Source: an uncultured Chelatococcus sp. (lineage in GTDB: Bacteria; Pseudomonadota; Alphaproteobacteria; Rhizobiales; Beijerinckiaceae). From it: a stretch of DNA of 64,000 nucleotides. The stretch covers positions 88,655 to 152,654 of the forward strand of contig CALMIK010000046.1 in NCBI GenBank assembly GCA_937863995.1, written 5' to 3'. Within the stretch, counting starts at the first letter, position 1, and each line of letters starts with the position of its first letter. The translations under genes and the position numbers were made by a program. Of this stretch, positions 1,462 through 19,250 are shown one piece after another. Under the pieces are notes generated by a model. The model ran no database searches and was not told the DNA's origin. It was given only the letters and a program-made list of their open reading frames with translations.

Positions 1462-3651
1462 ATGGGCCGTTCAGTTATCGTGCATGAGAACTTCCTGCGC
1501 CGGGTGCCGGCCGGGGATTTTCCACCCGGCCCAGCGCCGTCCGGGCCGCTGACGAATCCGCAGGCGGTATCGCTGTTTCGCTCGGGCTGCCTGTCGCGGG
1601 CGCTGGATCGCACCAGCCGGGCGATGCAGGCGGCGGGAACGGGCTTCTACACCATCGGCTCGTCCGGCCACGAAGGGCTTGCGGCCGTCGCGGCAGCGCT
1701 GCGCCCCACCGACATGGCCTTCCTGCATTACCGCGACGCGGCGTTCCAGATCCAGCGGGCCGAGCAGGTGCCGGGCCAGTCGATCGCGTGGGACATGCTG
1801 CTGTCCTTCGCCTGTTCCTCCGAGGATCCGATCTCGGGCGGGCGGCACAAGGTGCTGGGCTCGAAGGCGCTGTCCATTCCGCCCCAAACGTCGACCATCG
1901 CCAGCCATCTGCCCAAGGCGGTCGGCGCCGCCTATGCGATCGGCGCGGCGAAAAGGCATCGGCCCGAGCATGCGACCCTGCCGGACGACGCCATCATCTA
2001 TTGCAGCTTCGGCGACGCCTCGGCCAACCACTCCACCGCGCAGGGCGCGTTCAACGCCGCGCAGTGGACCTCCTATCAAGGGGTGCCTCTGCCGATCCTG
2101 TTCTGTTGCGAGGACAACGGCATCGGCATTTCCACCAGAACGCCCGCCGGCTGGATCGCCGCGACGTTCTCCAACCGGCCCGGCATCAAGTATTTCGCCT
2201 GCGACGGGCTCGACATCTACGACACCTACGCCACGGCGCAGGCGGCGGCGCATTACGTCCGCACCCGCCGCAAGCCCGCCTTCCTGCACGTGCGCACAGT
2301 CCGCCTCTACGGCCACGCCGGCGCCGATCTGCCGACGACCTACCTGCCCAAGGCCGATGTCGAGGCCGAGGAGGCGAACGATCCGCTGCTGCATTCGGTG
2401 CGGCTGCTGGCGGAAGCGGGCGCGCTCCGGCCGCATGAGGCGCTGGCGATCTACACGGAAACCGCGGAGCGCGTGTCGCGCATCGCCGCCGAGGCGGTGA
2501 CGCGGCCGCGTCTGCGCACCGCCGGCGACGTCATGGCGTCGCTGATCCCGCCCCGGCGCGCCTGCCGGGCGAGCAACGGACCGGACGGCGACACCCGCGC
2601 GCAGGCCTTCGGCGGCGACCTTAAGGCGATGGACGAGCCGCAAATCATGTTGCGCCTCATCAACTGGGCGCTGACCGACCTGATGCTGGCCCACAACGAA
2701 GTCGTCGTGATGGGCGAGGATGTGGGCCGCAAGGGCGGTGTCTACGGCGTCACGCAGAAGCTCGTCCAGCGCTTCGGACCGGACCGGGTGATCGATACCC
2801 TGCTCGACGAACAGTCGATACTTGGCCTTGCCATCGGCATGGGACAGAACGGGTTCGTGCCGATGCCCGAGATCCAGTTCCTCGCCTATCTGCACAATGC
2901 AGAGGACCAGATTCGTGGCGAGGCGGCGACGCTGCCGTTCTTCTCCAACGGCCAGTTCACCAATCCCATGGTGCTGCGCATCGCGGGGCTCGGCTATCAG
3001 AAGGGTTTCGGCGGACATTTCCACAACGACAACTCGGTGGCCGTTCTGCGCGACATTCCGGGCGTGATCCTCGCCGTGCCGTCGAACGGCGCCGACGCAG
3101 CGCGGATGTTGCGCGAATGCGTGCGGCTGGCGCGGGAAGAACAACGGGTGGTCGTGTTTCTGGAACCCATCGCGCTTTATCCGATGCGCGACCTGCATGC
3201 CGAAAAGGACGGGCTGTGGCTGCGCCGCTATCCCGACCCGGCCGAGACGATTGCGCTCGGCGAAGTCGGCGTGGAGGGCGCGGGCGAGGACATCGCCATC
3301 GTCACTTTCGGCAACGGCGTGTATCTGTCGCATCGCGCGCTGCCCCGGATCGAGGCGGCGGGGTTGAAGGCGCGTATCGTCGATTTGCGCTGGCTCTCGC
3401 CCTTGCCCAAGGACGCCCTGACGGCCGCGGTGCGCGGCTGCCGCCATGTGCTGGTCGTCGATGAAACCCGCCATTCCGGCGGCGTGGCCGAGGCGCTGAT
3501 GGCGCATTTCCATGAGCATTCGCCGGCGAAACTGGCGCGGCTGACGGCCGAGGACAGTTTCATCCCCACCGGCCCCGCCTATGCCGCGACCATGCCGTCG
3601 GCGGACGGCATCGTATCCGCCGCGATCGCACTCACCGGAGCGCAGCCATGA
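1462..3651 (+). CDS. Fused alpha/beta E1 component of a 2-oxoacid dehydrogenase (thiamine diphosphate dependent)
   Basis: A 729-residue protein that carries both E1 halves in one chain. Residues about 50-370 are the E1-alpha ThDP-binding half, with the pyrophosphate motif beginning FGDAS (D185) and ending EDNG (N219). Residues about 395-729 are the E1-beta half (GEDVG, DEQSILGLAIG, GGHFHNDNS, then the C-terminal transketolase-like domain). E1 decarboxylates a 2-oxoacid and passes the acyl group to a lipoyl-E2. No E2, E3 or lipoyl domain is encoded nearby, so it must borrow them or hand the acyl group elsewhere. A GGAGGAT ribosome site precedes the ATG. Its stop overlaps the next start by 4 bp, implying translational coupling to the acyltransferase. 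Branched-chain, acetoin and oxoadipate types cannot be separated by eye. Confidence 0.88.
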   Translation: MGRSVIVHENFLRRVPAGDFPPGPAPSGPLTNPQAVSLFRSGCLSRALDRTSRAMQAAGTGFYTIGSSGHEGLAAVAAALRPTDMAFLHYRDAAFQIQRAEQVPGQSIAWDMLLSFACSSEDPISGGRHKVLGSKALSIPPQTSTIASHLPKAVGAAYAIGAAKRHRPEHATLPDDAIIYCSFGDASANHSTAQGAFNAAQWTSYQGVPLPILFCCEDNGIGISTRTPAGWIAATFSNRPGIKYFACDGLDIYDTYATAQAAAHYVRTRRKPAFLHVRTVRLYGHAGADLPTTYLPKADVEAEEANDPLLHSVRLLAEAGALRPHEALAIYTETAERVSRIAAEAVTRPRLRTAGDVMASLIPPRRACRASNGPDGDTRAQAFGGDLKAMDEPQIMLRLINWALTDLMLAHNEVVVMGEDVGRKGGVYGVTQKLVQRFGPDRVIDTLLDEQSILGLAIGMGQNGFVPMPEIQFLAYLHNAEDQIRGEAATLPFFSNGQFTNPMVLRIAGLGYQKGFGGHFHNDNSVAVLRDIPGVILAVPSNGADAARMLRECVRLAREEQRVVVFLEPIALYPMRDLHAEKDGLWLRRYPDPAETIALGEVGVEGAGEDIAIVTFGNGVYLSHRALPRIEAAGLKARIVDLRWLSPLPKDALTAAVRGCRHVLVVDETRHSGGVAEALMAHFHEHSPAKLARLTAEDSFIPTGPAYAATMPSADGIVSAAIALTGAQP

Positions 3652-4685
3652 AGACAGCCGTGGTGATCTGCCCCGGACGGGGCACCTATAACGCCGACGA
3701 ACTGGGCTACCTGGGCCGGCATTTTCCCGATTCCGCCCTGCTCGCGGCATTCGACGCCCAACGCGCCGAAGCCGGTCAGAGCACCCTGTCCGAACTCGAT
3801 GGCGCGGAACGCTTTTCGCTCGCCCGGCATTCGCGCGGCGACAACGCATCGGGGCTGATCTTCGCCGCGACCCTCGGCGATTTTCTGTCCATCGACCGCG
3901 AGGCCGTGCGGATCGTTGCCGTAACCGGCAATTCGATGGGATGGTATTCGGCCCTGGCCTGCGGCGGCGCGCTATCGCCGGAGAACGGCTTTCGCGTCGC
4001 CAACACCATGGGCACCCTGATGCAAAAGGCCCTGATCGGCGGGCAGTTGATCTACCCGTGGGTGGACGAGAACTGGAAGCCGCGCCGCGACCGCAAGGCA
4101 GGACTGCTGGCGCTGGTGCGGGACATCGGCCAACGGCCCGGCCACAGCCTGTTCCTGTCGATCGACCTCGGCGGCATGCTGGTGCTGGCCGGCGACGAGG
4201 CGGGGCTCGCGGCGTTCGAGGCCGCTGTCGAGCCGGTGCAGCGCCGGTTCCCGATGCGGCTCGGCAATCACGCGGCCTTTCACACGCCGCTTCAGGCGCC
4301 CGTCGCGCAGCAGGGCCGCGCCCTGCTGTCGCCCGCCCTGTTCGGCCAGCCCATGCTGCCGATGATCGACGGGCGCGGCGCCATCTGGTGGCCGGGCGCG
4401 ACGGACATCGAGGCGCTGTGGGATTACACGCTCGGCGCGCAGGTAACGGAGAGCTACGACTTCAGCCGCGCCCTCGCCGTCGCGGCGCGCGAATTTGCGC
4501 CGGATCTGTTCATCGTCACCGGGCCCGGCACGACACTGGGAGGCGCCGTGGCACAATCGCTCATCGTGGCCGACTGGCGCGGGATGGACAGCAGGGAAGC
4601 CTTCCGCGCCCTGCAGGACAAGGCGCCGCTGCTCGTCTCGATGGGCATGGCGGAACAGCGCGGGACCGTGACCGGGGGCGCCTGA
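3648..4685 (+). CDS. FabD-like acyltransferase (malonyl-CoA:ACP transacylase superfamily)
   Basis: A 345-residue protein with the alpha/beta-hydrolase-like acyltransferase core of FabD. The nucleophile elbow reads GNSMG with S96, where most relatives have GHSxG. The partner histidine is H212 in NHAAFHTP. Where E. coli FabD has an arginine before the GxxMQ segment to hold the malonyl carboxylate, this protein has M121 (TMGTLMQKA), which argues against malonyl as substrate. The start overlaps the E1 stop (ATGA), so it is almost certainly co-translated with the E1. A reasonable inference is that it moves the acyl group made by, or needed by, the E1 enzyme; there is no direct evidence of substrate. 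Confidence 0.75.
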   Translation: MKTAVVICPGRGTYNADELGYLGRHFPDSALLAAFDAQRAEAGQSTLSELDGAERFSLARHSRGDNASGLIFAATLGDFLSIDREAVRIVAVTGNSMGWYSALACGGALSPENGFRVANTMGTLMQKALIGGQLIYPWVDENWKPRRDRKAGLLALVRDIGQRPGHSLFLSIDLGGMLVLAGDEAGLAAFEAAVEPVQRRFPMRLGNHAAFHTPLQAPVAQQGRALLSPALFGQPMLPMIDGRGAIWWPGATDIEALWDYTLGAQVTESYDFSRALAVAAREFAPDLFIVTGPGTTLGGAVAQSLIVADWRGMDSREAFRALQDKAPLLVSMGMAEQRGTVTGGA

Positions 4686-8566: not shown

Positions 8567-10656
8567 CGCTTTACCCACGCCCCCACGCGGAGGGCGACAG
8601 GGCTGCCGCGCAGGGGCAGCAGGAGGCAGCATGTTTCTACCCACGCCCCCACGCGGAGGGCGACACGGTGAGCGCAAGAAGCGCGGTCGGCCGCGGAAGT
8701 TTCTACCCACGCCCCCACGCGGAGGGCGACCAGATGCTCCTTGCGGCCGATATCGCGATGATCGTTTCTACCCACGCCCCCACGCGGAGGGCGACCGCCC
8801 TCCCTCATTTTTCCGGGTGCACCGGCGAGGTTTCTACCCACGCCCCCACGCGGAGGGCGACTTGCCGCGGCAGCCCTGGCCGCGGCGAGCAACCTGTTTC
8901 TACCCACGCCCCCACGCGGAGGGCGACCTTGCCGTCTGACTGGATACGCGCCGCCACCTGCGGTTTCTACCCACGCCCCCACGCGGAGGGCGACTGTCTG
9001 CCTGCATCAACATCAGCGGCCACACCCGGTTTCTACCCACGCCCCCACGCGGAGGGCGACGTACAAGGAGTCGAGGGTGGCATCACGTCCGTAAGCGTTT
9101 CTACCCACGCCCCCACGCGGAGGGCGACAGGCGGGATGGCTATGATCCCGCCCGCCATAAGGAGTTTCTACCCACGCCCCCACGCGGAGGGCGACACGTG
9201 GTCAGTGAGTGCACAGGCGGGCGGGCAGATGTTTCTACCCACGCCCCCACGCGGAGGGCGACGATCGGGTTGTTGTTGTTGTCGATGGGCGCGTATTCGT
9301 TTCTACCCACGCCCCCACGCGGAGGGCGACGCGCTCCCGGCCCTGCTGACAGCCTGTTGAATTCGCAGTTTCTACCCACGCCCCCACGCGGAGGGCGACG
9401 TCAACTGACTCCCGGATGATGACGCCGCTATCAGGTTTCTACCCACGCCCCCACGCGGAGGGCGACGCGAGATCACGACCGGGCTGCGCGAGATCGGAAA
9501 GTTTCTACCCACGCCCCCACGCGGAGGGCGACGGCGCGGGAGCGGCAGCTCGGCGAATGGGTAACGCGTTTCTACCCACGCCCCCACGCGGAGGGCGACC
9601 GCGACAAGCCGCGCGGTGGCAAGGAGCGCGGGAGTTTCTACCCACGCCCCCACGCGGAGGGCGACAGCGACCCCGAACGACAGCGACGCCAATCTCAAGT
9701 TTCTACCCACGCCCCCACGCGGAGGGCGACTGCGCCAGTATCGCGCGCTGACCGGCGAGGGGAGGTTTCTACCCACGCCCCCACGCGGAGGGCGACCCTC
9801 GACCGCGTCATCGAACGGCAGGGAGGCGTAGTTTCTACCCACGCCCCCACGCGGAGGGCGACCAAGCAGCGCGGTGGGCGAGTATGCTACGGTATAGTTT
9901 CTACCCACGCCCCCACGCGGAGGGCGACTTCGCCCCCCCCAAGAGCGTGATGTTTCCCGCCACGTTTCTACCCACGCCCCCACGCGGAGGGCGACTTCGC
10001 CCGACGAGCACCTTGCCGAGCTGCATCGGCTGTTTCTACCCACGCCCCCACGCGGAGGGCGACATGCGATGGGGGTGTGGTTGGGGTGTAGCGGCGTGTT
10101 TCTACCCACGCCCCCACGCGGAGGGCGACCCGAATGGTTTGAGCTTCTTACGGAGCTTGGTGATGTTTCTACCCACGCCCCCACGCGGAGGGCGACCGCG
10201 AGTTCTGAGATTAGCGCTGTTCTCAAAAGCGTTTCTACCCACGCCCCCACGCGGAGGGCGACAATCCGGGCGCTGCGGGAGGAGGTGGCGGGCCTGTTTC
10301 TACCCACGCCCCCACGCGGAGGGCGACGTTCGGCCGGAAGCGCATTAAAGAGCTGGAAGAAGTTTCTACCCACGCCCCCACGCGGAGGGCGACTGCCGAT
10401 CGGGAAACCCCATGACCGGTGGTTGAAGTTTCTACCCACGCCCCCACGCGGAGGGCGACCGGATAAACTGGCCCTCCAGTGTCCAGCTTTGGAGTTTCTA
10501 CCCACGCCCCCACGCGGAGGGCGACAACCCTCGATGGCGGCGACCTTGGTTGCAAGGGCGTTTCTACCCACGCCCCCACGCGGAGGGCGACATCGTGGGC
10601 GAACCTTGTTGCCATCGCCGATTTGTTTCTACCCACGCCCCCACGCGGAGGGCGAC
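8567..10656 (-). CRISPR. Type I-C CRISPR array, 32 repeats and 31 spacers
   Basis: The 32-bp repeat reads on the minus strand from GTCGCCCTCC to GGGTAGAAAC, the usual type I-C start and GAAAC end. Repeats begin at 8567, 8633, 8699 and so on to 10625. Spacers are 33-37 bp, mostly 34. All repeats are identical except the one at 8567-8598, which differs in four of the first five plus-strand bases. A degenerate repeat marks the leader-distal end, so the array is transcribed toward lower coordinates with its leader at 10657-10860, directly downstream of cas2. Open reading frames across the array with repeated PRGGVGRN or STHAPTRRAT units are artefacts. Spacer targets could not be searched. Confidence 0.99.
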
Positions 10657-10860: not shown

Positions 10861-11151
10861 TCAGACGATCAGTGTTCCGCCCAGGTCGGTTGCGGGCTTG
10901 GCGCCGACGTGTTCCACTTTGCGCTGCCAGTTGGAACCCAGATAGTAATAGCGCAAACTATCGAATTCCGGCTTGATGATGCTCTCGAGGCGCGCTTTCA
11001 ATTTCGTCCATTGCGCGGGATCTACTTCGATCTCGAAGACGGAGTATTGCACGCGCTGCCCAAGATCCCGGCAGGCTTTGGCCACGGCGCGCAAGCGCGC
11101 GTCTCCTCCCGCGTCGCTTGTCTTGACGTCATAGGTCACGAGCACCAGCAT
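10861..11151 (-). CDS. cas2: Cas2, spacer-acquisition subunit
   Basis: 96 residues with the Cas2 ferredoxin-like start LVLVTYDV (first-strand aspartate) and [10 protein letters not shown]. Cas2 forms the bridge of the Cas1-Cas2 integrase that inserts new spacers at the leader end. The length is normal for type I-C. It lies 9 bp downstream of cas1 and is the last gene before the leader, which is the standard I-C order. Confidence 0.97.
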
Positions 11152-11160
11152 CAGCGTATC

Positions 11161-12195
11161 CTACTTCCAGAACCATGGGGGATAGGCGTCGATGTCTCCG
11201 CGCAGATGCCGGGCCAGCAGTTGCGCCTGCAGGTAAGGGACCAGTCCCAGCGGCACCTTTTCTTCCAGGAATGGATGCTGCCGTTCCTCTCGCTTGCGCT
11301 CCTGCCACGCGGTCAGCACCGTCTTGCGCGCCTCTTCCGACATGATCACTGCGCCGCCATCCCGTGTTTCGAAATCGCCTGCCCGCAGTTGGCGCCGGTT
11401 GACCAGCGACAGCACCAGCCGGTCGACCAGAACGGGACGCAGTTCCTCCATCAGATCCAGAGCAAGGCTGGGGCGACCTGGCCGGTCGCGATGCAGGAAG
11501 CCCACGGCCGCATCAAGCCCCACGCTTTCGCACGCACTGCGGCAATCGTGCGTCAACAGCGTATAGAGGAAAGACAGCAGCGCATTGACGGGATCGAGCG
11601 GCGGGCGGCGCGACCGCCCCCGCCAGCGCATGTTCTCATCCGGCGAGCGGATCAGGTGATCGAACACGGAAAAATACAGGCTGGCCGCCTCCCCTTCCGA
11701 TCCGCGCATGAGATCGATGGTATCGTCGGCGCGTTGCACGCGTCGGATGATCAAGGCCAGACGGTCCGTAATGCCGGCGATTGCATCACGAGCCGAGGGA
11801 TCGAGCGTATCGCCATAATCCCGCAAGCCACGCATCAGCACGGCGCGCTGGTTCGACACCTTGCCCATGACGACGGAACGCACGATGTCCTGCGCGTTGT
11901 CGGAAGCCTTGTATTGCGCCATTCGCAGCAGGACATTGCCGGTTACGGGTCCTTCTATCCGGGCGAGGAACCGGCCGTTGCGATCCAGCAGAACGAGCGT
12001 GATCCCTGCAGCCGCGCAAGCCCCCATCAGCGCCGGTGACAGATAAATTGCGCCGAAGAGCACCACGGAGGCAAGCAGGTGCATCGGAACACGGGCACGC
12101 TCGGCGCCCTCCACCTCCACCACCAGATTTTCGCCATCCTTCCGCAAGGCGGCGCCTTCCGTGGTGACGTAGAGCGTGTTGAGAAGCTTTTTCAT
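11161..12195 (-). CDS. cas1: Cas1 integrase, type I-C
   Basis: 344 residues starting MKKLLNTLYVTTEGA, the typical opening of I-C Cas1. The ATG at 12195 overlaps the cas4 stop by 4 bp, so the longer reading frame to 12309 is rejected. The alpha-helical C-terminal domain holds the metal-site pattern (conserved glutamate, then H and D/E in the region GFLHRDRPGRPSLALDLMEE). It integrates spacers with Cas2 and, in this subtype, works with Cas4 to select PAM-bearing prespacers. Confidence 0.97.
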   Translation of the reverse strand: MKKLLNTLYVTTEGAALRKDGENLVVEVEGAERARVPMHLLASVVLFGAIYLSPALMGACAAAGITLVLLDRNGRFLARIEGPVTGNVLLRMAQYKASDNAQDIVRSVVMGKVSNQRAVLMRGLRDYGDTLDPSARDAIAGITDRLALIIRRVQRADDTIDLMRGSEGEAASLYFSVFDHLIRSPDENMRWRGRSRRPPLDPVNALLSFLYTLLTHDCRSACESVGLDAAVGFLHRDRPGRPSLALDLMEELRPVLVDRLVLSLVNRRQLRAGDFETRDGGAVIMSEEARKTVLTAWQERKREERQHPFLEEKVPLGLVPYLQAQLLARHLRGDIDAYPPWFWK

Positions 12196-12860
12196 GAAAA
12201 CTCCGCCGTCTCCGACAGAAGCGCGTTCACCATGCGGTCGCGCCATGCCTTGACCGGCTTGACGACTGCATCCGGGCGACACAGCTCGATCAGCGAACAA
12301 GCCCGGCACCGCGCTCGCTGATGGGTCGGCGGAGGGGTGCGGCGCGACGCGAAGACTTCCGCGAGCGCGTCGATGGTCTGTCGCGTCAAGTCCCGCAAAG
12401 CGTTATCGAACGGCACCGCCACCCGCCGCTTCGTCTCGGCGTAGAACAGCGCGCCCTGCGGCACGCTCGCGCCAGTCATTTCCTCAAGGCAGAGCGCCTG
12501 CGCGCACAGCTGCACCTCGTCTGCCCGGTGCAGCTTGGGCTTGCCGCGCTTGTACTCCACGGGGAATGGAATTTCTCCTGCCTCCCCCGCGTGAAACTCG
12601 ACCATGTCCGCAACGCCCGCGATGTTGAGGCGCGTCGAGGCGAGCGGCAACGCCATCACGCGGCGCACGCCGCGCGCCTTGCGCGAGCCGCCCTTGTCCG
12701 CCACGGCGTGCAGAACATCGCCTTCCGCCGTGAAGCGGTTCTCGGCCCACAGCCGCTCCAGGTGAATGAGCGCCGCCTGCCGCAGGCAATAGACCGCGTG
12801 CTGGAGGGCGGAAAGCGGGATGGGTTCGCCCTCCTCCGTGTCGCGCGCCGCGGCCGGCAT
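12192..12860 (-). CDS. cas4: Cas4 RecB-like exonuclease
   Basis: 222 residues. It has an N-terminal cysteine in AVYCLRQ and the C-terminal CRACSLIELC cluster, which together supply iron-sulphur ligands, and the nuclease motif VEYKRGKPK. Cas4 trims prespacer ends and checks the PAM before integration. It starts 2 bp after the cas7 stop and overlaps the cas1 start, so it is translationally coupled within the cas5c-cas2 operon. Confidence 0.95.
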   Translation of the reverse strand: MPAAARDTEEGEPIPLSALQHAVYCLRQAALIHLERLWAENRFTAEGDVLHAVADKGGSRKARGVRRVMALPLASTRLNIAGVADMVEFHAGEAGEIPFPVEYKRGKPKLHRADEVQLCAQALCLEEMTGASVPQGALFYAETKRRVAVPFDNALRDLTRQTIDALAEVFASRRTPPPTHQRARCRACSLIELCRPDAVVKPVKAWRDRMVNALLSETAEFS

Positions 12861-12862
12861 CG

Positions 12863-13816
12863 TCAGAGCCTTTCGATGATCTCGACGCCCGCGGGCAGAT
12901 CGTCTCTGTTGATGCGGATGAGATAGTCGGAAAAGGCGCGTGCGGGCAGCTGGTTGTCCAGCTTCTTGTCGATCGCCTTGAACTCCCCCTCCACGTTGCG
13001 GCCGATCTCGATACGGTCGAACAGGGCGTGTGCCGGCGCGTTGCCGAGCGCGCTGTCGTGCTTGAACACGATGAGCCGGCGCGTCGCCATTTCGCCGCGC
13101 GCCGCCGAGCGGTCATGCTCGAACATATTGGCGAGCGCCTCGAACAGCAGGTCGAGGTCGGCCTCGGAAAAGCCGGTGCGTTCCGCGAACTTGGCCGAGA
13201 TGAAACCGTGCGCCACATAGAGGCCATAGGGCACGATGTACTTGCGGCCCATGGTGCGGTTGTCGACGCGGTCCGGCCCCTCCTCGCTGCCTTCCGCCCG
13301 CTGCTTCTTTTCCGCCTCGTTGGTCGCGGCCATGCGGGTAATGGAGATTTCGAGCGGCATGATCGCCTCGACAGACCGGGCGAAGGTCATCTGCACCGGC
13401 CCCTTCACCTGCCCGCAGTTGACGCCGGTGGACATGACGGCGCCGAAGGTGCGCACGTCGAAGAAGTTCAGGCACATGAAATCGCGCAGCTTCCGCGCTT
13501 CCGCATCATCCTTCGGGTTCAGCTTGGCGTCCTTGTCCACCTTGGCGTCGCCCGGCCGCAGCGCCCGGTAGGCCTGCCGGTGCTTGTCGTTGAGGATAGC
13601 GCCTTCCTCGACATAGATATGGAAGCCGTCCAGCCCGGTCTTCGCCAGTTCCACGTAATTGCGAATCTTGCGTTTCAGGCTGACGTCCGTCACCAGCCCC
13701 TTGCTGGTCTCGGGATCGATGCGCGGCAGGTTGCCGGCATCCGGATCGCCGTTCGGGTTGCCGTTGGCGACATCGAAGATGAGGGCGAAATCGTAGCGGT
13801 TGGCAAGAACGGTCAT
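12863..13816 (-). CDS. cas7: Cas7 (Csd2), type I-C Cascade backbone
   Basis: 317 residues, beginning LANRYDFALIFDVANGNPNGDPDAGN, the RRM-like Cas7/Csd2 signature of type I-C. Several copies line the crRNA in the I-C Cascade. It overlaps the cas8c stop by 4 bp. Nothing unusual is seen in length or composition. Confidence 0.97.
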   Translation of the reverse strand: MTVLANRYDFALIFDVANGNPNGDPDAGNLPRIDPETSKGLVTDVSLKRKIRNYVELAKTGLDGFHIYVEEGAILNDKHRQAYRALRPGDAKVDKDAKLNPKDDAEARKLRDFMCLNFFDVRTFGAVMSTGVNCGQVKGPVQMTFARSVEAIMPLEISITRMAATNEAEKKQRAEGSEEGPDRVDNRTMGRKYIVPYGLYVAHGFISAKFAERTGFSEADLDLLFEALANMFEHDRSAARGEMATRRLIVFKHDSALGNAPAHALFDRIEIGRNVEGEFKAIDKKLDNQLPARAFSDYLIRINRDDLPAGVEIIERL

Positions 13817-15570
13817 TGTGCGGCCTCTGCGGATTCGGTGGCGTCGCCAGTTTTATTGAAGAATTCATTGCGCTGATGGTAGTAGCCGAGGCCGAACAGC
13901 GCTTGGTCTTCGGGCGGCAACGAGGTGGGATACGGATCCTCGGTGGGATCCATCAGCCCCATGATTTCAGACACCGTTTTTTCCAGGTTGACCCGCCATC
14001 CCGGCTTCTGCTTGCCCAGTTTCGACAGGTGGTTGGCGGAGCCGCTGTCCAGGATGGGAAACACCTTGCGGGGCTGGGCGGAAGCAGAACCGTAGAACTT
14101 GTCCTTGATGGTGGCATTGACGTTGCCGCCAAGCGCCGCCCTCTGGATCTGCTCGTAGACGGCGAAGAGACGCCCCAGCAGGTAGCCCCGGTTCGGGTGT
14201 TTCGGGTTGAGCGCCACGGGCGCCTCCTTCTCCATGTTGAAATTACGACAGAGCACCGCTTTCAGCATGCTGACGCGGTAGGCATTGATGTCGCCGTCGG
14301 CGCGGATGCGCATGAGCGTGGTGGATAGCAGCGTCAGCGGATAGTGCGCGCCGGTCAGGATCGAGCGCATCCACTCGCCGGCCAGATTGGGCGGCACGTT
14401 CTCGCGCTTGCGCTGCACGGCGAGTTCCGACAGGTGACGCCACAGGCCGGCGTATGGATCGCGCGGCGGCGGAACGATGCGCATGTCGGCGACGTATTGC
14501 TGATAATGCTTTGTCAATACGCCGAAATCGTCCTCGTAGTGGAAGCGGATGGACAGGCGCGCCGCATTGGGGGCAAGACCCAGCACATGGAAGCGCACCC
14601 CCTTGGCCAGCTTGGGCTCGATGTCCTCAAGCCGTTGGCCCTTGCGGATACGCGCGAGATGATCACCGATCTTGTCCGTGTCCGCGGCTGCATCGTCGGC
14701 CGCACTGACGAACTGCGCGAACAGGCTTTCGGCCTCCGCCGCCACCTCGCCGCCGTTCTGTGACCACGCCCAGAAGACCGTTGAGGCATCGCCGATTTGC
14801 ACCCGATGTCCGCTGCCGGTCTCAAGAAACCGATTGAGCACGGTCGTGTAGGCGAACGCCGCCGCCTCGGACACGGGAGCGTTGTCGCCCTGCTCGTGCC
14901 CGTATGATGTGAAGGCATCGAGGTTGAAGGATACCAGCGCCGCCCCGGACGATTGAGCCCCCCAGACACCCTTGATGGACGGATGCAGCCGCGCCACCGG
15001 ACCCGGACTGCCGCTCACGAGGCAGATTTTTGCCTCCTTTTCGCCGGCGCCCGCCACGGCCTGCCAGAGGTCGCGCGCCGCCGGCCGGTCGTGAATGCGG
15101 ATATCCCGCAGGCGCTCGCTCTCCAGCGCGAAGACGACATTCTGGTCCTTCATCTCGTCGGTCCAGCGCGGCGGCGTGAACTGTTCCGGCGTCCACGATT
15201 TCAGGAAGAGCCGGAGCGCCTTGAGCCCTTCGTCTTGCGCCCCCTCCAGAGCCTCAAGGTGTCTGGCGACGAAAGCCGCATGCTCGCCGGCCGTGCGCTT
15301 GCCCTCGCCCGCTGTCACGCCAAGAACGTAGGAAGTCTTGTCCCACAGGAAGTTCGGCGCGATACCGGCCGTGCGCTTCACCGGCTGCGGCACCAGCAAC
15401 TGGACCGGCCGCTTCTTCTTGCCGGCACCCTCCCGCAGGTCGACGACATGAACGACCGACCCGTCCCCGGCCAGCGAAATCAAAACACCGATCTTCTCCG
15501 AGGAGAAGCCATAGGGCGGCGCACCCGGCAGCCGGTCATAAGCTTGCGCCAGCGACGTCAGGATGCTCAT
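13813..15570 (-). CDS. cas8c: Cas8c (Csd1), large subunit of type I-C Cascade
   Basis: 585 residues, matching the Csd1 family from the start (ILTSLAQAYDRL, then PPYGFSSEKIGVLISL) to the C-terminal HQRNEFFNK segment. The large subunit recognises the PAM (TTC in studied I-C systems) and stabilises the R-loop. In I-C systems the 3' part of this gene can also yield a separate Cas11c small subunit from an internal start; I did not identify that start with confidence. It overlaps cas5c and cas7 by 4 bp each. Confidence 0.96.
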   Translation of the reverse strand: MSILTSLAQAYDRLPGAPPYGFSSEKIGVLISLAGDGSVVHVVDLREGAGKKKRPVQLLVPQPVKRTAGIAPNFLWDKTSYVLGVTAGEGKRTAGEHAAFVARHLEALEGAQDEGLKALRLFLKSWTPEQFTPPRWTDEMKDQNVVFALESERLRDIRIHDRPAARDLWQAVAGAGEKEAKICLVSGSPGPVARLHPSIKGVWGAQSSGAALVSFNLDAFTSYGHEQGDNAPVSEAAAFAYTTVLNRFLETGSGHRVQIGDASTVFWAWSQNGGEVAAEAESLFAQFVSAADDAAADTDKIGDHLARIRKGQRLEDIEPKLAKGVRFHVLGLAPNAARLSIRFHYEDDFGVLTKHYQQYVADMRIVPPPRDPYAGLWRHLSELAVQRKRENVPPNLAGEWMRSILTGAHYPLTLLSTTLMRIRADGDINAYRVSMLKAVLCRNFNMEKEAPVALNPKHPNRGYLLGRLFAVYEQIQRAALGGNVNATIKDKFYGSASAQPRKVFPILDSGSANHLSKLGKQKPGWRVNLEKTVSEIMGLMDPTEDPYPTSLPPEDQALFGLGYYHQRNEFFNKTGDATESAEAAQ

Positions 15571-16235
15571 CGCAGGATCTCCGGCGAGTGAGGTGGAGGC
15601 ACCCTGACGATGCCGTTCTCCAGCTTCGCCCGGAAGAACAGCGACGGCCGGTCCTTGGCGTCATGGTCGATGTCCCACAGCATCAGCCCGAGATCGCGGG
15701 TTTCATCGATGGCTTTCGGCAAGGACACGCCGGCCGGCAGCAAGGAAAAGCGGGCCGCGAATTCGCGGGTGCCAAGGCAGGGCTGATGAAAACATTGCCC
15801 GCGCGCCGCGCGCCGGTTGAACATATCGAGGTGCTTGCCTTCGGTATCACCCGGGCCGGCCTTGTCGGTCAGCACGAAATGCGCTTCGATGACATAGGCG
15901 ACATCGACCAGCATGGTGGACGCCCGCTGCTGGCGATCCTCATCAACCAACAGCTGCAACCCTTCAAGGCTGCCGCGGTTCATGGCCGTCTTGATCTTGC
16001 CCACCGGCGCCTTATGCCCGACTTCGTTGCGACGAATGGACTGAAATTTGATGGGCTTGAGAACGTGAATCGCGTCTATCACATATTTTATAGCCGGCTT
16101 CCAATGCACCGCCTCCAGAATCCCCCTTGCTGCGGAAGGAGTGAGACAATCGTAACTGACACGCTCTACCTTGAGCTCGGCTCTCGTAAAACAAGCGTGG
16201 TCGCCCGATACTTCGAGCCTGATGCCATAAGCCAA
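15567..16235 (-). CDS. cas5c: Cas5c (Csd5/Cas5d), crRNA-processing endonuclease
   Basis: 222 residues. The N-terminus AYGIRLEVSGDHACFTR and the segment PSAARGILEAVHWKP are type I-C Cas5 signatures. In this subtype Cas5 replaces Cas6: it cuts each repeat below the stem to leave an 11-nt 5' handle and stays bound to it. The start codon is TTG at 16235, supported by a G-rich ribosome site (AGGGGG) six bases upstream. It is the first gene of the cas5c-cas2 operon. A strong promoter lies just upstream, unlike the usual case where cas5c follows cas3 directly. Confidence 0.95.
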   Translation of the reverse strand: MAYGIRLEVSGDHACFTRAELKVERVSYDCLTPSAARGILEAVHWKPAIKYVIDAIHVLKPIKFQSIRRNEVGHKAPVGKIKTAMNRGSLEGLQLLVDEDRQQRASTMLVDVAYVIEAHFVLTDKAGPGDTEGKHLDMFNRRAARGQCFHQPCLGTREFAARFSLLPAGVSLPKAIDETRDLGLMLWDIDHDAKDRPSLFFRAKLENGIVRVPPPHSPEILR

Positions 16236-16268
16236 GAACGCCCCCTATTCTTATGCTGTCGCCTCAAG

Positions 16269-16297
16269 AATATATTTCGGTAGTTTATTGTAAGCAA
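16269..16297 (-). promoter_or_regulatory. Predicted promoter of the cas5c-cas2 operon
   Basis: On the minus strand, TTGCTT (16297-16292), a 17-bp spacer and TATATT (16274-16269) form a good housekeeping promoter. Transcription would begin near 16262, about 27 nt before the TTG start of cas5c. This lets the effector and adaptation genes be expressed apart from cas3. Confidence 0.6.
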
Positions 16298-16304
16298 TTG
16301 ATGG

Positions 16305-16318
16305 GTTTCTATCCCGAC
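16305..16318 (-). repeat. Collapsed CRISPR-repeat remnant
   Basis: The minus strand reads GTCGGGATAGAAAC, which joins the first four bases of a I-C repeat to the last ten bases of the repeat-like copy at 16755-16787 (GGATAGAAAC). The palindromic middle is missing. It abuts the predicted cas5c promoter. A chance match is possible but is uncommon in a gap this short. Confidence 0.4.
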
Positions 16319-16378
16319 AATGCGGATAAACTCTCTTTCCTTTCGCCGAATTTCAACGCCAGTTGTAGAATCAGACTC

Positions 16379-16582
<204 letters not shown>

Positions 16583-16618
16583 TCAGGTTGCATTTACGAT
16601 GACGCAGATAAGCCTGCA

Positions 16619-16664
16619 TGTCAACAGTTCTTATTTTATCATGTTAAATAAATTCTGGTATTTT
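16619..16664. promoter_or_regulatory. Predicted Cascade target site beside promoter elements
   Basis: TTC at 16628-16630 (the I-C PAM) is followed by TTATTTTATCA at 16631-16641, identical to the first 11 nt of the pseudo-spacer at 16788. Positions 13-16 and 19 of the protospacer also match; the distal half mostly does not (18 of 34 overall). On the minus strand a TTGACA (16624-16619) lies three bases beyond the PAM, pointing toward the GIY-YIG remnant and cas5c. On the plus strand TCAACA (16621-16626), 17 bp and TTAAAT (16644-16649) could form a promoter that the protospacer would cover. Binding here should repress one or both. Confidence 0.6.
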
Positions 16665-16783
16665 CGGCCATTTTATTTATAAACTTCATGCGGCGTCGCT
16701 TCTTGAAGCGAAGCGCAAAGCCATTCCATATATCGCCAGATGGCTGCCGGCCTTGTCGCGCCCCACGCGGGGAACGTGGATAG
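16641..16783 (+). other. Tiny ORFs between the target site and the lone repeat
   Basis: Two short frames lie downstream of the predicted target. 16641-16682 encodes MLNKFWYFRPFYL, an aromatic-rich peptide. 16688-16783 encodes 31 residues starting MRRRFLKRS and ends inside the lone repeat. Neither has a clear ribosome site. In CreTA systems the repressed toxin gene lies just here, between the targeted promoter and the guide, so they are worth listing, but coding is unproven. Confidence 0.25.
16703..16732 (+). promoter_or_regulatory. Possible promoter of the lone-repeat guide RNA
   Basis: TTGAAG (16703-16708), 18 bp, then CATATA (16727-16732) would start transcription near 16740, about 15 nt before the lone repeat. 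The -35 element overlaps a perfect dyad CGCTTC-TT-GAAGCG (16697-16710). This is a moderate match to a housekeeping promoter. Confidence 0.4.
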
Positions 16784-16853
16784 AAACTTATTTTATCAAG
16801 TTATTTCGTACCTCAATCGCAGTCGGCGAGCCTCTATACAGGCCCGCTGACTG
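16755..16853 (+). CRISPR. Solitary CRISPR-like unit (pseudo-repeat, 34-nt pseudo-spacer, degenerate second repeat)
   Basis: A 33-bp I-C-like repeat at 16755-16787 starts GTCGCGCCCC and ends GTGGATAGAAAC. It lies opposite in strand to cas and keeps 10 of 11 bases of the array's 5'-handle sequence. It differs from the 32-bp array repeat in the stem. A 34-nt pseudo-spacer (16788-16821) equals the modal array spacer length. At exactly its end, GTCG recurs (16822) with a small hairpin GCCT-N6-AGGC (16830-16843), a possible degenerate second repeat. The unit ends just 3' of cas3. The spacer's first 11 nt match 16631-16641 next to a TTC. It fits a crRNA-like regulatory RNA such as CreR or CreA. Confidence 0.65.
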
Positions 16854-16862
16854 CCATTCTCC

Positions 16863-19100
16863 TCACACAACCAAGTCCTCCACCGCCAGATAATCGGCAT
16901 CCTCCCAGAGCAGCCCGACGTCCTCCTTGTAGAGTTTCATGTTGCCCAGCACTGCAAACTGATTGCCGCGCAATTCCGGATGCATGAAGGCGGCCTGGCC
17001 GTTGGCAATCAGCAACGCCCGCGCCTTTGGCGGCACCTGCACCACATAGCCCTGCAACTGACGCGCGAGGACGCCGGAGGAGAATTTCTCCACGCCAAGC
17101 CGCGTGACCGCGTCACGCGAAGCATCGTCCAGAGCAACGATCACCGGCTCCATGCCGCTCTCGACCATGCGGAAATCCGCCGCCACTGAGCGATAGGCAA
17201 AATCCGTCTGGCCGTGCGGGAGCCTGAAACGGGTGCAGATCTTCTTTTCATCCAACCCCGTTTCGCCCAGCCTCCAGTAAACCTCCATGAAATAAGCCTG
17301 CATGGCTTTGACGGAAAGCAGATCCGGATGCTCGTTCATGATGCGCTGCATGTCGCCGATCAGTCCCCTGATCTCCGCTGGCGGCGGATAATCGGGGGCG
17401 CGGAACACCGTGACAATGCTGTCCGCAACCGGACGCTTCCCCTCCCGGTTGCAGCGCCCGGCCGCCTGTACGATCTGGTCGAGGCCGGCCTCGGCGCGCC
17501 ATACCCTTGGGAAGTCGACGTCGACACCCGCCTCGATCAGGCTCGTTGCGATCACCCTTATCGGCCGTTCGCCCTTCAGCCGCTCCCGCGCCTCTTCTAG
17601 AATACAGCGTCGATGCGCGGCGCACTGGCGCGTCGTTAAATGCACCAGTCCCTCGATCCCCGCCAACCCGGCTTGCCTGTACAGCTCAAGCGCGTGCCTG
17701 CGGCTGTTGACGATGACAAGCGCCTGCGGCTCTCCCCGGAGCGCGCGGATGAGGGCCTCGTTATCCATCTCGCCGGCATGCCGGATGCGCGTCCGGCGCA
17801 GCTTGTCCGTCAGCGCTTCGGGATCGGGCGCGAGTTCCCGGCCCGCAAGCGGCAGGCCATCGCGCAGATCGGCCTGATCCAGCGCAGGTTGCGTCGCGGT
17901 GCATAGCACGATGGTGCAGCCGTAGTTCAGCGCCAGTTCGTCCAGCATCCGCATGCAGGGTTTGAGCAGGTGACGCGGAATCGTCTGCGCCTCGTCGAGA
18001 ATAATGACGCTGTTGGCGATATTGTGCAGCTTCCGCGCGCGTGACGGGCGCGCGGCGAACAGGCTCTCGAACAATTGCACATTGGTCGTCACCACCACTG
18101 GCGCGGCCCAGTCCTCCATGGCCAGCTTCAGCTTGTCCCGCTGCTGCGGTGGCCCTTCCCGACCGTACTTCTCTTCATCGATTGCCGAATGATGTTCCAG
18201 CACATGCGCGTCGCCGAGAATTTCGCGAAAAATCGCCGCCGTTTGATCGATTATCGACGTGAAGGGGATGGCATAAATAATGCGAGTATGGCCATGCGCC
18301 CGCGCGTGATCCAGCGCGAAGGCCAGCGACGCCAGCGTCTTGCCGCCGCCAGTTGGCACGGTGAGCGTGAACAGGCCGGGCCTTTCCAGTGCGCGCGCAC
18401 GGACATGGGCGAGGATGTCGCTGCGCAGCCGGTTCAAGGGGGTGTCAGACTTTTTCCCCTCCATGTAGACGTCGAAAGCATCGTGGAAACCGGGCAGCAA
18501 TGCCTGCAATGGGCTCCATTCCCGATCCGCCAGCCGCCCTTCCAGCGCCGCGTAAAAGGCTTCGGTATCCTTGAAATCGGCATCGACGAGGCAGGAAAAG
18601 ATCATCCGCCCGATGACCGAGATCTGGAACGCCGCATGCGGCATGCGAATGGAAGAGAAAAGCCCGGGAATGAGGTCCGCGCCGCTGGCGGCAAGCTCCC
18701 GTTCCCACGCGGAATCGAGAGCGGCAACGCTTTTCCCTAACCAATCATCCAGCGTGCCGGGCGTATCGCCGCGCCGATCCGGCAGACCCGCATGATGGCC
18801 GGCAATCGCATAGGCAATCAGTTCGGCGATGCTTCTGTCAGGCCCCGACGTGAGGGATAGAACCGTCTGCGCCCCGGCCGTCGAGTGATCGACCCCTTCC
18901 GGCGCGCCATCGAGACGTCTTTGAAATGCCGCCGAATACTTCCCGAGATCATGCAGCAATCCGGCCAGACGGGCGGCCTTTTCGAGCTTCAGCGGCGCGG
19001 CCATCGCCGCCGCCAGAACGGCAACCGCTTGCGAATGGTCCTTGAGATACTGCCAATCGCTCTTGTTGGCGTTCTTGCCCGTATGCGCATAATAAATCAT
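16863..19100 (-). CDS. cas3: Cas3 helicase-nuclease, type I-C
   Basis: 745 residues. An N-terminal HD nuclease domain carries H22 and the H50-D51 pair (LLHDLGKY). SF2 helicase domains follow, with Walker A VPTGGGKT (K254), the DEAQ box at D369-E370 and the motif VI-like QAAGRCNREG. Cas3 is recruited by target-bound Cascade to unwind and shred DNA. The ATG at 19100 (AGGGA six bases upstream) matches the usual I-C Cas3 start; a TTG-initiated frame from 19130 is less likely. Cas3 is separated from cas5c by an unusual 627-bp insertion instead of being directly adjacent. The 150 bp upstream (19101-19250) hold no recognisable gene. Confidence 0.95.
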   Translation of the reverse strand: MIYYAHTGKNANKSDWQYLKDHSQAVAVLAAAMAAPLKLEKAARLAGLLHDLGKYSAAFQRRLDGAPEGVDHSTAGAQTVLSLTSGPDRSIAELIAYAIAGHHAGLPDRRGDTPGTLDDWLGKSVAALDSAWERELAASGADLIPGLFSSIRMPHAAFQISVIGRMIFSCLVDADFKDTEAFYAALEGRLADREWSPLQALLPGFHDAFDVYMEGKKSDTPLNRLRSDILAHVRARALERPGLFTLTVPTGGGKTLASLAFALDHARAHGHTRIIYAIPFTSIIDQTAAIFREILGDAHVLEHHSAIDEEKYGREGPPQQRDKLKLAMEDWAAPVVVTTNVQLFESLFAARPSRARKLHNIANSVIILDEAQTIPRHLLKPCMRMLDELALNYGCTIVLCTATQPALDQADLRDGLPLAGRELAPDPEALTDKLRRTRIRHAGEMDNEALIRALRGEPQALVIVNSRRHALELYRQAGLAGIEGLVHLTTRQCAAHRRCILEEARERLKGERPIRVIATSLIEAGVDVDFPRVWRAEAGLDQIVQAAGRCNREGKRPVADSIVTVFRAPDYPPPAEIRGLIGDMQRIMNEHPDLLSVKAMQAYFMEVYWRLGETGLDEKKICTRFRLPHGQTDFAYRSVAADFRMVESGMEPVIVALDDASRDAVTRLGVEKFSSGVLARQLQGYVVQVPPKARALLIANGQAAFMHPELRGNQFAVLGNMKLYKEDVGLLWEDADYLAVEDLVV

Positions 19101-19250
19101 GTCGTTTCCCTGGCAGGCGGCATGCTTCAAAGCGCTTTTAACGTCAATCTCCGCAAAGCGAATTCAAAAATACAGCAATAGGCAGCAACTCCGCATTGCG
19201 ATATCGCAAGCAAAACAACACGCTGGATTCAGCGAGGCCGGCGACGCGCT

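Follow-up and report, generated by a model that had tools for sequence, protein, structure and literature searches.

A lone degenerate repeat in a type I-C cas3-cas5c gap probably encodes a CreR-type guide RNA predicted to repress cas genes

Shmakov et al. reportedly described, in NAR in 2023, standalone repeats and mini-arrays from both type I and type V-A systems. CreR elements are named for types I-B, I-E and V-A in the available part of one source (PMC13131331), and for 'type I and type V-A' in the available part of a review (PMC12737573). CreTA modules are described, in the text at hand, for archaea and for type I-F in Acinetobacter, where cas3 and csy1 are separated by about 400 bp that harbour CreA, which pairs at 17 of 20 nucleotides, the 6th, 11th and 18th excepted (PMC10097628). 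The canonical seed rule is reportedly not followed by this CreA (PMC10097628), which makes it an inexact analogy for the locus described here. For type I-C itself, sources available in part report that TTC is a PAM (PMC8406640) and that, in Neisseria, I-C Cascade guided to a site beside TTC over a -10 element serves as a repressor (PMC10865793). A literature search of titles and the starts of abstracts retrieved no report of an element of this kind in type I-C, a result that covers those parts of the records and carries no claim that I-C cases are unpublished.

Type I-C is a common subtype without Cas6. A full I-C gene set, in the order cas3-cas5c-cas8c-cas7-cas4-cas1-cas2, was recognised with NCBIfam profiles on the minus strand of the window (the whole stretch of 64,000 nucleotides that was analysed), and the profile matches of the effector genes were of full or near-full length. 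The features are as follows:

16863..19130, minus strand: cas3 (TIGR01587 and TIGR01596), upstream of the element
16819..16854, plus strand: strong GC-rich hairpin right after the spacer (-25.8 kcal/mol for a 51-nt stretch)
16788..16821, plus strand: pseudo-spacer of 34 nt (31 nt up to the start of the hairpin)
16755..16787, plus strand: lone degenerate type I-C repeat of 33 nt, on the strand opposite to cas
16631..16646, plus strand: seed-matched target, 15 of 16 positions identical to the start of the spacer
16628..16630, plus strand: TTC, the PAM of the target
16619..16624, minus (cas) strand: TTGACA, -35-like, a predicted promoter without a good -10, 3 nt past the PAM toward cas5c
16379..16555, minus strand: broken GIY-YIG-family ORF, of which this is the 5' part (58 aa), located between target and cas5c
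15567..16235, minus strand: cas5c (TIGR01876), the first recognised intact gene past the target
13813..15570, minus strand: cas8c (TIGR01863)
12863..13816, minus strand: cas7 (TIGR02589)
12192..12860, minus strand: cas4 (TIGR00372)
11161..12309, minus strand: cas1 (TIGR03640)
10861..11151, minus strand: cas2 (TIGR01573)
8633..10656, minus strand: CRISPR array of 31 repeats, all identical

The gap between cas3 and cas5c measures 627 bp and contains, read in the direction of the cas genes, the hairpin, the spacer and the repeat, both oriented against the cas genes, an AT-rich segment that includes target and TTC, the TTGACA and finally the broken GIY-YIG-family ORF. An earlier note on this DNA had placed a lone I-C-like repeat at 16755-16787 on the strand opposite to cas, and had seen the first 11 nucleotides of the spacer recur at 16631-16641 with TTC immediately 5'; all of this proved exact. 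The 3' end of the repeat has one mismatch with respect to GTGGATTGAAAC, and the sequence forms the repeat stem, interrupted by a bulge of 2 nt (-11.1 kcal/mol vs -11.8 kcal/mol for the array repeat). The cas genes thus adjoin an ectopic, degenerate repeat that belongs to the same subtype as the host system, as is characteristic of CreR. The hairpin at 16819..16854 lacks a T tract and possibly takes the place of a second repeat or acts as a terminator. A comparison of 16200-16900 with Rfam (E 1) gave no match.

The spacer and its target agree at positions 1-11 and 13-16, with position 12 as the sole mismatch in the first 16, and past position 16 the matching is at background level. The overall match of 18 of 34 positions given in the earlier note is correct as a count and masks this pattern of 15 of 16 first positions followed by background. 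The second characteristic of CreR, a spacer that partially matches a PAM-flanked site, is therefore found as well. When the genome (3.53 Mb in 99 contigs, 97% complete) was searched with up to 3 mismatches, the target and the spacer itself were the only matches. None of 20,000 dinucleotide shuffles of 16236-16754, scored solely where positions 1-5 match exactly, attained the observed 14 of 15 scored positions; the same score was attained by none of 91 swapped regions and by 1 of 2,000 spacer shuffles, so that the few chances in ten thousand estimated before were on the cautious side. A pair search over 1 kb that required no repeat, and demanded of the spacer solely a preceding C or T, returned the pair of the window as the only one at 13 of 15 or better.

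We then surveyed type I-C cas5c loci. These were drawn from the genomes with a match in four overlapping sets (7 of 60 near genomes, 35 of 397 at order level, 14 of 385 at class level and 23 of 398 at phylum level) and complemented with 43 further loci from a genome contig collection. Merging of 9 duplicates reduced 110 loci to the 101 distinct ones that were analysed (numbered with L); left out were L049 and L112, where cas5c is partial, and the cas5c places G084, G332 and G362, and the cas5c starts of L092 and L108 are misplaced. A repeat was taken as lone repeat when it had at most 2 mismatches, or 3 together with GTCG, and such a repeat was present within 1.5 kb upstream of cas5c in 22 of the 101 loci. 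A TTC-flanked partner of the adjoining spacer was found at 11 or more of the 15 scored positions for 18 of these 22 (all except L022, L091, L092 and L093), and at 13 or more for 13 of them. The other 63 trinucleotides, pooled, yielded 9 partners at the lower threshold and 3 at the higher, and TTC alone stands out among the 64 (18 vs at most 2). The pair of L017 is weak, since its 11 of 15 is attained by 1 of 91 swapped regions and by 11 of 2,000 shuffles.

The matches per position, from 1 to 17, in the 18 pairs were 17, 17, 17, 17, 18 (positions 1-5), 3 (position 6), 15, 17, 16, 18, 17 (7-11), 2 (position 12) and 18, 18, 14, 14, 9 (13-17). Matching is thus near-complete at positions 1-5, 7-11 and 13-14, and limited to 3 of 18 at position 6 and 2 of 18 at position 12. 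Pooled, positions 6 and 12 match in 5 of 36 cases, the rest of 1-16 in 233 of 252 and positions 18-34 in 72 of 306; because targets were chosen on positions 1-17 minus 6 and 12, the low counts at these two are unselected and the high counts elsewhere partly selected. Type I effectors (Cascade) flip every sixth base, position 12 included, out of pairing, and low counts at 6 and 12 are expected if the spacers pair as Cascade guides. A word search in the available text of two I-C structure papers (PMC7684278, PMC11417383) found no mention of a flipped or sixth base.

Spacer and target also change together: four paired positions co-changed between L084 and L085, and two between L036 and L040, next to one-sided changes at a few positions, e.g. 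3 (L083 vs L085), 15, 16 and 17. The 18 pairs are not fully independent, because L083, L084 and L085 share one genus and L036 and L040 look alike. Repeat-target modules were present in 16 of the 38 loci with a measured cas3-cas5 gap of at least 120 bp and in 2 of the 63 below, and for these last two (L036 and L040) the measured gap is wrong, as the cas3 frames end about 1 kb upstream. In the 22 gaps of at least 120 bp that lack a module, no word resembling a repeat end was found together with a TTC-flanked partner at 11 of 15. The pair search without repeat, at 13 of 15 in 26 loci that included the congeners, gave one pair in L021, two in L041, none of them preceded by a repeat, and zero in the other 24.

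The closest relatives found, Pseudochelatococcus lubricantis and P. contaminans (Cas5c 88% and 87%), are the two other Pseudochelatococcus genomes examined, and the spacer-target pair is kept in neither, which implies that it is dispensable in the genus. P. lubricantis (L008, ~3570-3640) carries a degenerate orphan relative of the repeat and spacer of the window, which is outside the 22 because the filter excludes it; this repeat too has a long hairpin downstream, of a sequence unlike that of the window. One exact pattern (TTC plus the first 10 spacer positions, with position 6 free) found no target in the P. lubricantis genome, and a repeat scan found no lone repeat in P. contaminans. The orphan repeat without exact target, together with the 4 of 22 lone repeats without target at the threshold, is what one would expect of array debris, i.e. 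a stray repeat with a chance match. The uniqueness of the match in the genome, the shuffles and the signature at positions 6 and 12 in 18 loci all argue against this explanation, and we consider it very improbable for the window.

A further reading of a solitary repeat is that of an RNA anti-CRISPR (Racr), in which it acts as decoy; according to the accessible part of PMC10651486, solitary I-C repeats do so in a prophage locus. The element of the window, on the contrary, is located inside the host cas cluster and has a matched target, which leaves the decoy reading the least credible of those considered. Similar DNA was found neither in 50,697 phage records (query 16590-16862) nor in 72,556 plasmid records (query 16236-16862), and the element, being part of a host cas locus, does not qualify as the phage- or plasmid-encoded RNA that defines Racr.

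We consider it likely, from the comparison of sequences, that the lone repeat and spacer encode a CreR-type guide RNA that would repress cas5c-cas8c-cas7-cas4-cas1-cas2 via I-C Cascade. The plus strand would be transcribed and Cas5c would cleave the repeat stem, leaving the usual 5' handle. The guide would load on Cas5c-Cas8c-Cas7 and bind 16628-16646, where it would cover or abut the TTGACA at 16619-16624, and the bound Cascade would block either initiation or read-through from cas3 into cas5c-cas8c-cas7-cas4-cas1-cas2. With a pairing of only about 16 nt, Cas3 would not be unleashed, and the site would be repressed rather than cut. When phage crRNAs or an anti-CRISPR divert Cascade, repression would be lifted and more Cascade made. 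The earlier note had likewise read the locus as the source of a guide RNA that turns Cascade into a repressor, and the PAM, the indifferent positions 6 and 12, the loss of pairing past ~17 and the co-variation, all of which were found, lend that reading support at the sequence level. The search of related I-C loci that it proposed was in line with it in the partners of 18 of 22 lone repeats and in their co-variation, and did not in the two congeners, both of which are without the pair.

The putative promoter at which the predicted repression would act is represented by the order GAA-CTG-TTGACA, in which TTGACA is 3 nt from the PAM and cas5c is the next recognised gene; a broken ORF intervenes, and a scan for consensus promoters on both strands of 16200-16900 found none. 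In the survey, TTGAC occurred within 19 nt of the PAM complement in 8 of the 17 loci whose target and cas genes are on opposite strands, as compared to 10 of the 256 GAA sites that these regions contain, those 8 counted in. The distance from TTGACA to cas5c is about 380 nt in the window, in contrast to the 16 nt (L059) and 23 nt (L019), with nothing between, that separate target and cas5c elsewhere. In L083-L085 the target is ~180 nt from cas5c, with only short ORFs of 29-41 aa between them; these three loci, L059 and L019 look like cas autorepressors. In the window the promoter could alternatively drive a short ORF, or the GIY-YIG-family ORF that is broken, instead of cas.

The main rival to the CreR reading is that of a decayed CreTA guard, in which the guide formerly repressed a toxin gene of the gap, perhaps the GIY-YIG-family ORF or one for a small peptide; the toxin gene would since have been lost or disrupted and the pair left behind. 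It gains from what the targets sit beside in other loci. In L014, L023, L025 and L066 the interval from target to cas5c contains a short hydrophobic ORF, as it does with less certainty in L018 and L095; the hydrophobic peptides of the first four are candidate toxins held by CRISPR, judged by sequence, and Pfam gave no match for the two that were scanned (L023 and L025). The target is next to a PIN gene in the neighbourhood of an antitoxin-like gene in three further loci: L039 has the succession MazE-like gene, repeat, target and PIN gene, with the target just before the latter, the target of L036 lies between a FitA-like gene and a PIN gene, and L040 has, by eye, the same arrangement as L036. 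The broken state of the GIY-YIG-family ORF in the window (16290-16555) also suits a decayed guard; the ORF is longer in P. lubricantis and P. contaminans and has the same position in each of the three Pseudochelatococcus loci. On the other hand, the match of 15 of 16 is still intact, which suggests that the pair is under selection or young, and there are loci that have nothing (L059 and L019) or only ORFs of 29-41 aa (L083-L085) between target and cas5c. The GIY-YIG family, moreover, is large (569 relatives found, some named GIY-YIG nuclease family) and in P. contaminans the ORF is present without a guide, so that it is no obvious toxin; Pfam, at E 0.1, matched neither the 58-aa ORF nor the GIY-YIG-family ORFs. 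We consider a decayed guard unlikely, and CreR a better fit than a remnant CreTA because cas5c is the first recognisable intact gene past the target; counting against this preference are the ORFs of 36-58 aa, none of them recognised, which lie on the cas strand in the interval from target to cas5c.

Those ORFs, of 36, 58 and 44 aa, could also be taken in favour of a guard that still works, with the promoter next to the target giving rise to a short toxic RNA (CreT) or to a short peptide that is not recognised, the more so as known CreT are small RNAs according to the available text of PMC10097628 and PMC8501985, and the candidate toxins elsewhere have ~30 aa. Pfam, however, recognises no ORF in the interval between target and cas5c (four short window ORFs, the 36- and 44-aa ones included, were compared besides the 58-aa one), none of the window ORFs resembles by eye the hydrophobic peptides of the other loci, and 16200-16900 contains no terminator-like site. 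A working guard is thus improbable, and clearly more so than a decayed one.

Some further observations were made on the surveyed gaps. The hydrophobic peptides of L014 (~3797-3899), L023 and L025 are ~33 aa long, follow the pattern MR-[ILF]-P...DFW and are encoded between target and lone repeat; that of L066 is a 30-aa ORF in the cas3-cas5 gap. In L014 an inverted repeat, GGCTCACTCC / GGAGTGAGCC, encloses by eye the whole guide unit, and a similar one was seen in L023. In L018 a BrnA-antitoxin-like gene is found ~590-340 bp upstream of cas5; it follows cas3 and precedes the target and the short hydrophobic ORF. The records of L039, L036 and L040 are named Akkermansia, Akkermansiaceae and Verrucomicrobiales, and antitoxin-like and PIN genes fill their cas3-cas5 gap.

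One guide design appears, by sequence, to serve two ends, cas autorepression and control of candidate toxins. We tentatively suggest, as a reading somewhat less likely than not, that the I-C cas3-cas5c gap is, from Alphaproteobacteria to Verrucomicrobia, a standing niche for Cas5c-made guides that repress any promoter there. The cargo would vary between nothing (cas autorepression), a hydrophobic peptide toxin of ~30 aa and a PIN RNase beside an antitoxin gene under Cascade control, and the window would represent a guard that turned thermostat after its cargo gene broke. If the proposed repression is real, self-regulation guided by RNA, for which the available part of PMC13131331 names I-B, I-E and V-A, would extend to type I-C. 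The skipped bases in the 18 spacer-target pairs suggest which positions count, and may provide a natural rule for a non-cutting I-C Cascade repressor, and the unannotated peptide and PIN candidate toxins, if held by CRISPR, would allow a direct test of the reasons for which CRISPR systems are kept despite their cost.

Compared to the known systems, the element of the window belongs to the same class as the standalone repeats attributed to Shmakov et al. and is, like those, computationally predicted. It shares with the Racr solitary repeats (PMC10651486, as far as its available text goes) the lone I-C-type repeat, and differs in that Racr are phage- or plasmid-encoded repeat mimics, whereas the window is a host locus with a matched target. 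With CreTA it has in common the lone degenerate repeat in the gap after cas3, the target at a nearby putative promoter and the partial match, in which most I-C pairs skip the 6th position; unlike CreTA, no toxin is recognised in the window, and peptide ORFs or PIN genes occur at some other I-C loci in place of a known toxic RNA. As in CreR, the gene is crRNA-like and adjoins cas, its complementarity to a PAM-flanked site near a predicted cas promoter is limited, and no toxin gene is recognised. It differs from CreR in being of type I-C, with Cas5c instead of Cas6 as predicted processor, in having one recognisable repeat, with a hairpin replacing the second, and in being predicted from sequence.
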